Below, piece after piece: positions 43,716-46,471 of a stretch of DNA of 64,000 bases. The stretch is from NCBI GenBank assembly GCA_016841955.1, contig JAENYE010000001.1:124001-188000 (forward strand). Reading direction: 5' to 3'. The number at the start of each line of letters is the position of its first letter. Position 1 is the stretch's first letter. Position numbers and translations under genes: made by a program. The stretch is from Methanobacteriota archaeon (lineage in GTDB: Archaea > Halobacteriota > Methanomicrobia > Methanomicrobiales > Methanoculleaceae). The notes beneath the pieces were generated by a model. It saw only the letters and a list, made by a program, of their open reading frames with translations, was not told the origin of the DNA and ran no database searches.

Positions 43716-43819
43716 TCAGCAGAGTTAAATATCCAGGTCTCGAACAGTTATAGCACTTTAACGAGAGATTGCTACCCCTGAAGGGTATCGCGTCCTCAAC
43801 AGAGTATTTCGGTGGTCAC

Positions 43820-44197
43820 ATGCAGTGGCAAGGAAGATCAGTACGGAAGCCGTCGGGCGGACGCTACCACACCTCCCAGGGCAAGAAGAGATCGGAGATC
43901 GGAAGAGCTCCGGCAGAGACGCACATCGGTGAAGAACGCAGGAAGATTGTCCGCACCTACGGGGGTAACCAGAAGGTCCGGGCACTCCGGATAGACTACG
44001 CGACGGTCGCGAACCCCGCAACCGGCGAGACCCGGAAGGCGAAGATCGAGACGGTCGAGGCAAACAGCGCCAACCCGAACTATGTCCGGCGAAACCTCCT
44101 GACCAAAGGCGCCATCATCAAGACCGATATCGGGCGCGCGCGGATCATCAGCAGACCGAGCCAGGACGGCGTCGTCAACGCCGTTCTGCTCGCATAA
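43820..44197 (+). CDS. rps8e: Small ribosomal subunit protein S8e
   Basis: This 125-residue archaeal ribosomal protein starts M-Q-W-Q-G-R-S-V-R-K-P-S-G-G-R-Y, typical of S8e, and ends with a conserved R-P-S-Q-D-G-V-V-N-A segment. ATG 43820 follows GGTGGT; the in-frame upstream stretch has no family similarity. The gene is single and stands between hypB and a convergent DsrE-like gene. Confidence 0.96.
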   Translation: MQWQGRSVRKPSGGRYHTSQGKKRSEIGRAPAETHIGEERRKIVRTYGGNQKVRALRIDYATVANPATGETRKAKIETVEANSANPNYVRRNLLTKGAIIKTDIGRARIISRPSQDGVVNAVLLA

Positions 44198-44207
44198 GAT
44201 ACCTTTT

Positions 44208-44523
44208 TTACGGCCGGATGTAGTACCAGCTCCACGATGCCTGACGGGACGGTCTCCACGTAGCCGGGGAGGTTCTCCGCGGTTAAATTCCGGGAGCCCA
44301 GCGTCTGCTCGCAGACGACGAGCCGGACGCCGCGTCCCGCGAGCAGGTCCATGAGGCCGGCGTTCGGGCCGCCGGCACGGATCCCCTCCACGCCGTCTGC
44401 GTGGACCACCACCTCGACCTCGACCCCTTCGAGATCGGTGACGAGGTTTTTCACGTTCCGGAGGGCCAGCGCCGCCTTCTCGCGCTCATCCAGGTGGATG
44501 ACGACCCGCGGGGAGGACGTCAT
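44208..44523 (-). pseudogene. DsrE-family sulfur-relay-like protein with C-terminal frameshift
   Basis: The N-terminal 95 or so residues follow the DsrE/DsrF-like pattern: V-V-I-H-L-D-E, H-A-D-G-V-E, V-V-C-E-Q-T-L-G near 70 (conserved Cys) and P-S-G-I-V-E-L. After that the open frame runs on to 44080, overlapping 118 bases of convergent rps8e. Shifting frame by one at about 44225 gives ...W-Y-Y-I-R-P-stop (44208-44210), the ending seen in the family and only ten bases from rps8e. A small deletion of a non-multiple of three, including the R-R-Q-x-E-G helix, probably caused it. It may still be functional. It is coupled to the SoxB-like gene by an ATGA overlap. Confidence 0.65.
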
Positions 44524-45959
44524 ATCGCCGTCACGCTCCCGCGGAGATCGGCGCTGACGGGCCCTCCCGCCAGGTAGCGTTCGAGCGCCTCGACCGCCCG
44601 GATATCGAGGTCCTCCCGGTTCTTCCCGTAGGCCGGCGGCACGCCCTGGCCGGTGACGAACGCGGCCTTGTAGACAGCGTCCGGATCGAGCCGCTTTCCG
44701 GCTGCAAAGAACTCCTGGATCCGGAGACCGGGCGGGTTCTCGATCTTGCAGTAGAGGTTAACCCCCGCACAGCGCTTCACGTAGCCGCCCATCTGGTCGT
44801 AGGGGTTCCGCGCAAAGGTCCGCTCCAGGTTCTCCTCCATCATCACCCGGAGTTCCCGGCCCGTGATCTCGACCGTCGAGACCGGGGGGTTGACCGGGAT
44901 GATGTTCCAGAGGTCGTTTGCCGTGACCGGGCCGGGCGGTACCGGGGCGCCGTAGCGCCAGCCGTTCGAGAACGCCATCCGGGCGCCTGTGGCGTCGATG
45001 AGCGCCTGTAAGAGGAGGTTGTCCATCGTGGATTCAAGGACCGTGTTCCGGTTGAGCCCCGTCCGGGTCTCCCCGACGACCCGGGAGAGGCGCTCGCGGT
45101 GGGGGTCCATGACCTTCCCGACCATCTCCTCGACCCCGGGATCGGGCCGGATCTCCTCGCCGACGACGATGAGGTCGTGGTCGAACCGTTTCACCCGCCG
45201 GTTCTCGACCGTAAGGTCGAGCCGCCCGAGGAAGGAGCCGTGGCAGCCGGACTGGATGATGACGGTGTCGTTGACGACGGCCGGCTCAAAGAGGCGGTTG
45301 TGGGTGTGCCCCGAGAGGAGGACGTCGATCCCGTCCACCTCCCGGGCAAGTTTCACCTCCTGGGGAAAACCGAGGTGCGATATCACCACGACGAGATCCA
45401 CCCCCTCTTCGTCGCGGAGATGAGCGATGTACCCGGGGAGTTCGGCGTTGCCGAGGGAGAAGTGGATCCCCTCCGAGAAGGAATCCGGCATCACCTTGTC
45501 GACGATTGTAGCGGCGATGCCGATGACGCCCACCTGCAGCCCGTCGGTCTCGCAGATCGTATACGGGGGAAAGACCAGGTCTCCGGTCGCGTCGTCGTAG
45601 CAGTTGTCGGCCAGGACCGGGTAGTCGAGCCTCTCGGCCACCTTCCGGAACTGCTCCGGCCCGTAGGCGAACTCCCAGTGGGCGGTCATGGCATCGAACC
45701 CGAGGGCGTTCAGGACCGGGACGAGTGCCTCGCCCTTCGATTGGACGGCAGGGTAGGTCCCGTGGATGGTGTCGCCGCAGTCGAACGCGAGCACCCCCTC
45801 CTGCCGCGCACCGCGGATCTCCTCAAGGAGCGCGGCTATCCGGGCATACCCCCCTGCCGTCCGGTACCGGGGCGGCCCGCCGGCATAGAAGAGTTCCGGG
45901 TGCGGCTCCAGATACCCGTGCGAGTCGTTCATCTGCAGGAGCGTGAGGTGGTCCGTCAT
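44520..45959 (-). CDS. SoxB-like/5'-nucleotidase family metallophosphoesterase
   Basis: The 479-residue protein has the UshA/SoxB domain pair: Q-M-N-D-S-H-G near 8-14, D-C-G-D-T-I-H-G near 60 and S-G-H-T-H-N near 215 for the two metals, then the C-terminal 5_nucleotid_C domain (about 300-470). The third metal motif, G-N-H-E/D in nucleotidases, reads A-H-W-E-F-A-Y-G here, close to the H-W-E-F form I recall from SoxB sulfohydrolases. It has no signal peptide, so it acts in the cytoplasm. The next gene is a DsrE-like protein, which fits sulfur chemistry, although nucleotide hydrolysis remains possible. Confidence 0.75.
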   Translation of the reverse strand: MTDHLTLLQMNDSHGYLEPHPELFYAGGPPRYRTAGGYARIAALLEEIRGARQEGVLAFDCGDTIHGTYPAVQSKGEALVPVLNALGFDAMTAHWEFAYGPEQFRKVAERLDYPVLADNCYDDATGDLVFPPYTICETDGLQVGVIGIAATIVDKVMPDSFSEGIHFSLGNAELPGYIAHLRDEEGVDLVVVISHLGFPQEVKLAREVDGIDVLLSGHTHNRLFEPAVVNDTVIIQSGCHGSFLGRLDLTVENRRVKRFDHDLIVVGEEIRPDPGVEEMVGKVMDPHRERLSRVVGETRTGLNRNTVLESTMDNLLLQALIDATGARMAFSNGWRYGAPVPPGPVTANDLWNIIPVNPPVSTVEITGRELRVMMEENLERTFARNPYDQMGGYVKRCAGVNLYCKIENPPGLRIQEFFAAGKRLDPDAVYKAAFVTGQGVPPAYGKNREDLDIRAVEALERYLAGGPVSADLRGSVTAI

Positions 45960-46048
45960 GGGTGCAGGGAGGGAGGGGTGTGCCAAAAACTTTTGTGCCT
46001 CCGGCGGGATCACATCCTTTTTACGTTCCGCAGACCTCCATTCTAGTG

Positions 46049-46471
46049 ATGCGCAGGATATACCATCGTTTCCCCCAATCCATCGACCTCGACTTTGAAC
46101 TCGTCCGGCCGTTCCGGGAGGTCCTTGCCTGTATAGTCCGGATGAACGACACCCACACGACCGTACGGGGACCCGACGGCCTCATCAAGGAACGGATCCT
46201 CGTCCAGGTCGCGGACGGGCGGACGCAGTTCCTTGACCTCGACGCCCTGGTGCCGCTCGCCGAGAAGGTCACCGAGGTGGCGGACTTCCGGATCGACCTG
46301 CAGAGGACGCTGCTTACCCCTGAAAAAAGGTTGCCGGTCTCGGAGAACGTCTTCTTTCTCCGGATCGTCGACAAGGGTCCGGTGACGGAGTGCTACGTCG
46401 CGAAGGATGGCCGCCTCGGTGACATGGACGCGATGGACCTGCGAAAGATGCTCAAGGGTGCCTGCGAGTGA
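46049..46471 (+). CDS. Conserved archaeal protein of unknown function
   Basis: The 140-residue protein is soluble and not recognised. It has a basic first strand (M-R-R-I-Y-H-R-F-P), an alternating beta-rich N-terminal half with D-D-T-H-T-like turns and a helical C-terminus (M-D-L-R-K-M-L-K). ATG 46049 sits 25 bases after a CTTTTTA-rich segment and may be nearly leaderless. It overlaps the DUF2240 gene by GTGA, so the two are translated together, and it is divergent from the SoxB-like gene. Confidence 0.65.
   Translation: MRRIYHRFPQSIDLDFELVRPFREVLACIVRMNDTHTTVRGPDGLIKERILVQVADGRTQFLDLDALVPLAEKVTEVADFRIDLQRTLLTPEKRLPVSENVFFLRIVDKGPVTECYVAKDGRLGDMDAMDLRKMLKGACE

Follow-up and report, generated by a model that had tools for sequence, protein, structure and literature searches.

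Hydrolase gene and adjoining dsrE reading frame

The window (the whole stretch of archaeal DNA that was analysed, 64 000 nucleotides in length) carries a SoxB-like hydrolase gene on its reverse strand at 44520–45959. The gene starts with ATG at 45959 and encodes 479 amino acids followed by a stop codon; the product comprises a metallophosphoesterase domain and a 5'-nucleotidase C-terminal domain, so the metallophosphoesterase reading frame called in the initial annotation was borne out. The codons for H94-W95-E96, the SoxB-type replacement of the N-H-E motif, lie at 45672–45680 on the same strand. The hydrolase stop codon (TGA, 44520–44522) overlaps the start codon of a dsrE-like gene (ATG, 44521–44523) in an ATGA at 44520–44523, also on the reverse strand, as had been proposed; the product of this second gene matched the Pfam DsrE family PF02635 (E 9.3e-8, 32.7 bits, gathering cut-off 22.7) and its closest solved relative was MTH1491 (1l1s, E 3e-14). 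A divergent reading frame at 45962–46471 on the forward strand (∼140 amino acids from the ATG at 46049) adjoins the hydrolase gene and is followed by a DUF2240 gene; it gave no match in Pfam or NCBIfam.

In its present reading the dsrE-like frame spans 44080–44523 (reverse strand, 147 amino acids). Residues 1 to ∼100 are DsrE and the remainder is frameshifted and antisense to the convergent gene for ribosomal protein S8e (43769–44197, forward strand), which the read-through frame overlaps. A 23 nt deletion between direct GCTGGT repeats has shortened the window dsrE (junction at about 44225–44230, reverse strand), and because of it the ancestral stop codon (TAA, 44208–44210, reverse strand) is out of frame. 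The DsrE proteins of relatives end in VVRQAEGWCYLRP directly before the stop; this conserved end (VRQAEGWCYLRP) is gone from the window frame, which is thus not a complete gene, and the end initially assigned at 44208 had to be shifted to 44080. The sole cysteine in the homologous part, C71 (44311–44313, reverse strand), is kept in 18/18 intact relatives aligned. The frameshift could in principle be an error of sequencing or assembly, with the pair intact in the strain: the draft assembly consists of 9 contigs, and several other damaged dsrE copies come from metagenome bins. A 23 nt deletion between direct repeats is, however, of a type usual in nature and a dsrE remnant was also found in a single-contig genome (G040, L023), and such an artefact is considered improbable.

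Relationship of the hydrolase to SoxB

The best NCBIfam family for the hydrolase was SoxB (341.7 bits, E 6e-102), with the next family at 136.5 bits; the score lies below the TIGR04486 SoxB equivalog cut-off of 550 and the protein is not assigned to the equivalog. Canonical SoxB paralogues with scores above this cut-off (830–862) were present in 6/42 genomes that contain a SoxB-like gene. One genome (G190; L144, L145) combines canonical SoxB copies with several genes of the SoxB-like type. By sequence, Thermus SoxB was the best solved relative (E 6e-46). The PF02872 C-terminal domain is present in the hydrolase (E 2.4e-17, Pfam), and the solved SoxB fold covers the PF02872 region too.

A maximum-likelihood tree was calculated from 79 rows comprising 48 SoxB-like proteins, 10 canonical SoxB proteins, two haloarchaeal plasmid proteins and nucleotidases; most near-identical members from the genus, duplicate loci and one locus broken by frame changes (L087) were left out. 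The 48 SoxB-like proteins formed one clade (support 99/79), which was joined by the two haloarchaeal proteins (100/96). Canonical SoxB (10 rows, 100/100) was the sister of this combined group rather than the clade in which the SoxB-like proteins are nested, and the joint support of 100/98 places the nucleotidases, which stand on long branches, outside. The phylogeny against SoxB and nucleotidase sets called for in the initial annotation therefore grouped the hydrolase with SoxB, and the contrary outcome named there, a position firmly inside the nucleotidases with no DsrE linkage in relatives, was not obtained. A further protein (L140, 433–2124), from a genome reached through a Bradyrhizobium locus, scored 244 bits against the SoxB model and has N-H at the motif; its branch lies just outside SoxB, and it may represent an intermediate between nucleotidases and SoxB.

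The variant H-W-E-F motif that had been noticed at the G-N-H-E position was confirmed as H94-W95-E96-F97 and aligns with S-H-W-E of SoxB. In the N-H-E motif of nucleotidases the histidine is catalytic and the asparagine is a metal ligand; neither is present at these positions in the hydrolase. Position 94 is His in 47/48 SoxB-like proteins and 9/9 canonical SoxB proteins and Asn in 18/18 nucleotidases (rows that include two PDB fragments), while position 95 is Trp in 48/48 and 9/9, respectively, and His in 17/18 nucleotidases of the same alignment. Four further residues (D313, R335, Q389 and R396) are common to the hydrolase and SoxB and absent from the aligned nucleotidases, and position 337, which is Arg in 15/18 nucleotidases, is Gly in 47/48 SoxB-like members. 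The residue aligned with W95 is Cys in 4uwq, the disulfide-linked SoxB–SoxYZ structure. The available part of a review describes a disulfide between the SoxY cysteine and SoxB residue 175, natively Trp (PMC9774590); this residue and the Cys of 4uwq are taken here to be the same, the numbering being unreconciled between the two sources. On this reading the carrier-facing residue appears to be retained.

An AlphaFold model of the hydrolase (37 sequences, pLDDT 93.7, pTM 0.92) had SoxB as its best structural match (Z 43.0, rmsd 2.0, 475 residues, 28% identity). The first nucleotidase followed at Z 41.0, so close to SoxB that the predicted fold supports the kinship without deciding it. The protein might accordingly be read as a nucleotidase or another phosphoesterase that shares H-W-E with SoxB by chance, in line with the Pfam name of its C-terminal domain, the annotation of relatives as 5'-nucleotidases in the records and the near-equal fold scores. 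This reading was rejected on the replaced His and Asn of N-H-E, the change of Arg 337 to Gly and the exclusion of the nucleotidases from the SoxB group, and we regard it as very unlikely. The proposed kinship with SoxB is thus backed by the profile, tree, active-site residues and predicted fold.

The SoxB-like proteins also depart from canonical SoxB. The spacing from DxH to GG is 51–63 residues in canonical SoxB versus a median of 21 in the SoxB-like proteins, an insert of ∼35 residues being absent; in the window hydrolase the spacing is 21. The hydrolase has no signal peptide, and a Tat leader of the RRxFL type was found in none of the 47 SoxB-like members inspected, 11 of which have at most 15 open codons upstream of Q-x-N-D-x-H, too few for a signal peptide. 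A search for SoxY (PF13501) in the window's genome gave no match, but its controls were silent as well, and the search was therefore run on the 42 genomes with a SoxB-like gene; as a positive control, SoxY scored over the cut-off in seven of them, all reached via proteobacterial loci.

Distribution, loss of dsrE and gene neighbourhoods

The gene was searched for in a draw of 150 genomes from the order. It was present in 24/28 genomes of the same genus, the window's own not being counted, and only sporadically elsewhere in the order; the loci from the genus include Methanoculleus sediminis, in agreement with the methanogen host that had been assumed. A scan of public genomes added bacterial members in Chloroflexota, Bacillota, Pseudomonadota and Bacteroidota and archaeal members in Methanosarcina, Bathyarchaeota, Hermodarchaeota, Thorarchaeota and Thermoplasmatota, all as titled by the records, which may be wrong since many of these loci are from metagenome bins.

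In the genus the hydrolase frame was open at all 25 loci. An intact dsrE with the ATGA overlap was found at 17/25 and a damaged or missing dsrE at 8/25, the window included. The recurrence of ATGA at 17 loci, together with the presence of the hydrolase in most genomes of the genus, indicates that the overlap is more than chance. One interpretation is that DsrE is a dedicated carrier and that the two proteins replace SoxB and SoxY in the cytoplasm: hydrolysis of DsrE-Cys71-S-S-SO3− by the SoxB-like enzyme would yield sulfate and a persulfide, the latter for onward transfer. The overlap and the single conserved cysteine favour it, as does the lack of this dsrE in 4/4 same-genus genomes without the hydrolase; moreover, Rhodocytophaga and Spirosoma encode a DsrE adjacent or close to the hydrolase, and a Cys-S-thiosulfonate is possible on DsrE3A according to the portion available of PMC4175335. 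On the other hand, eight intact hydrolase genes stand with a damaged or missing dsrE, and DsrE was absent within ∼5 kb (or as far as the contig reached) at 12/12 archaeal loci outside Methanomicrobiales. Another family of the order has DsrE relatives of ∼42% identity in members that lack the hydrolase. The hydrolase dN/dS, a pairwise value that mainly reflects the time preceding dsrE loss, was similar in pairs with damaged dsrE and in pairs with intact dsrE (0.13–0.24 over 13 pairs; the two pairs in which both dsrE genes are intact gave 0.17 and 0.19). A dedicated carrier is on balance rather unlikely. A special coupling to DsrE, as proposed initially, finds no support as a general feature, and the loci from the genus and the other archaea rule out that the hydrolase is always beside DsrE.

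Outside Methanomicrobiales a rhodanese, TauE, DsrE, MBL, YeeE or tsdBA-type gene lies within ∼5 kb at 16/34 loci (15/33 full-length, without the fragment L090), a count that is descriptive only because the families were seeded after inspection of the neighbours. Two families, rhodanese and DsrE, were compared with the genome-wide background in 32 genomes, and both are linked more often than by chance: five loci have rhodanese where 0.56 would be expected (P 2e-4), and two have DsrE where 0.12 would be expected (P 0.007). The loci are partly interrelated. Among the neighbours on individual plasmids were ArsR, rhodanese, TauE, MBL and cytochromes in Bradyrhizobium, DsrE, ArsR, MBL, YeeE, TauE and sulfite oxidase in Novosphingobium, and two DsrE, two TusA, two rhodanese, MBL and TauE in Sporosarcina. 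These bacterial neighbourhoods, with their rhodanese, TauE, MBL, DsrE and tsdBA genes, support the role in sulfur metabolism that the initial annotation had suggested. Sulfur neighbours were found at two of the 12 archaeal loci outside Methanomicrobiales (L057 and L089) and at none of the other ten.

In several Proteobacteria tsdBA adjoins the SoxB-like gene. In Afipia the gene is adjoined by two cytochromes that match the TsdA half (E 3e-88) and the second half (E 1e-35) of 5lo9, the latter of which we take to be TsdB. TsdA-type cytochromes c are exported. The proximity to tsdBA raises the alternative that the enzyme hydrolyses tetrathionate or other polythionates for detoxification, with the free anion rather than a carrier as substrate, and the available text on Erythrobacter flavus places SoxB downstream of TsdA on tetrathionate (PMC7608252). 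The window protein, however, has no signal peptide, in contrast to the exported cytochromes, and no tsdBA was found near the archaeal members, and this alternative appears doubtful.

A linked rhodanese partner was also considered for the window protein and discarded: none is encoded near the hydrolase, and the five PF00581 matches of this genome all lie elsewhere. Elsewhere in this genome (L158, 2314–4678; contig C3 about 901813–904177, reverse strand) a class-V aminotransferase that may be a cysteine desulfurase stands in a row with DsrE and three TusA genes; this sulfur-relay cluster, although distant from the hydrolase, is a possible source of carriers.

Proposed role and comparison with known systems

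SoxB releases sulfate from SoxY-Cys-S-S-SO3−, as set out in the available part of a review (PMC9774590). The hydrolase is probably a cytoplasmic thiosulfohydrolase of a wider SoxB clade that is independent of SoxYZ and acts on S-sulfonates or thiosulfonates, with DsrE as one optional carrier. Like SoxB, it would act as a dimetal hydrolase on the terminal sulfonate bond of R-S-SO3− or R-S-S-SO3− and would yield sulfate and a thiol or persulfide without SoxYZ. As substrate we would expect a cytoplasmic sulfur carrier, or a small thiol, to which an S-sulfonate or thiosulfonate is attached. The co-translated DsrE was probably one such carrier in Methanoculleus, via its single conserved cysteine; since this protein is dispensable and its gene is being lost, the role would have to be filled by further carriers (TusA, rhodanese) or by small thiols too. 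The cell would probably benefit by regaining thiols and sulfane sulfur from adducts of thiosulfate, polythionate or sulfite, not by gaining energy from thiosulfate. Methanogens are sensitive to sulfite (PMC10229431, available part).

The favoured reading draws on the Metallosphaera system, where Cys-S-thiosulfonate occurs on DsrE3A and TusA while the authors, in the text available, call the route of sulfonate release unknown (PMC4175335); a cytoplasmic SoxB would supply this step. Sulfur neighbours missing at 10/12 archaeal loci and a profile score of 341.7 against the cut-off of 550 count against it. So does the nature of the tsdBA and persulfide dioxygenase partners, whose aerobic or periplasmic chemistry is, to our knowledge, lacking in methanogens. 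In E. flavus, no phenotype followed the deletion of two other SoxB-like genes in the account available (PMC7608252), and this was counted on the same side. As a more speculative extension, a cytoplasmic SoxB that is uncoupled from the Sox pathway might serve methanogens and other anaerobic archaea as an S-sulfonate hydrolase of general use, by which sulfite or thiosulfate adducts are removed from the thiols of proteins and small molecules (coenzyme M or cysteine possibly among them); DsrE, TusA and rhodanese would then be exchangeable carriers, and the enzyme would be the missing sulfonate-release step for cytoplasmic DsrE and TusA thiosulfonates.

No published account of this gene or clade in methanogens was found in the open-access literature, and the portions available of PMC11582611 and PMC12345210 contain none of a cytoplasmic SoxB; a SoxYZ-independent SoxB is already published for a bacterium. 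A literature search on thiols likewise yielded no direct lead. The Sulfolobales 'SoxB' (PMC3512248) is a cytochrome oxidase and a mere namesake. Surveys take SoxB to mark thiosulfate oxidation and would be misled by a cytoplasmic, SoxYZ-free clade in archaea, methanogens included. If the protein is a SoxYZ-independent sulfonate hydrolase, it would add a sulfur-handling route to methanogens and would offer a testable answer to how the cytoplasmic thiosulfonates described for DsrE and TusA (PMC4175335, in the part available) are opened.

With SoxB (TIGR04486; Thermus thermophilus 2wdc and the SoxYZ complex 4uwq) the hydrolase shares H-W-E, the metal-ligand positions, D313, R335, Q389, R396 and the overall fold; it differs in the lack of a Tat signal, the short DxH–GG spacing, a genome in which no SoxY was found, the low identity and the score below the cut-off. 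The haloarchaeal plasmid proteins (L127, 3920–5710; L128, 3914–5707) are the sister group of its clade in the tree and are encoded adjacent or close to rhodanese, with a TauE or DsrE gene in the vicinity, but their motif reads N-W-D rather than H-W-E and the metal-ligand His at 195 is replaced by Glu. The DsrE3A/TusA system of Metallosphaera cuprina, in the available description (PMC4175335), likewise involves an archaeal cytoplasmic DsrE with a thiosulfonate-bearing cysteine; DsrE3A, however, has two conserved cysteines and adjoins an Hdr-like cluster, whereas the window DsrE, which is damaged and has MTH1491 as its closest match, has a single one. In E. flavus 21-3, again from the part of the source available (PMC7608252), soxB, tsdA and an MBL/rhodanese gene form one induced cluster, and deletion of soxB, which acts outside a SoxYZ system, raised tetrathionate and stopped the formation of zero-valent sulfur. 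This TsdA–SoxB–SDO pathway shares with the present clade SoxB homologues outside SoxYZ that are annotated as 5'-nucleotidases, and the tsdA and MBL/rhodanese neighbours of its bacterial members; it differs in belonging to an aerobic bacterium, and the likeness is drawn from the description of the pathway and not from its sequences. Within these bounds, the tsdBA linkage of the bacterial members of the clade resembles the published SoxYZ-independent pathway of E. flavus.
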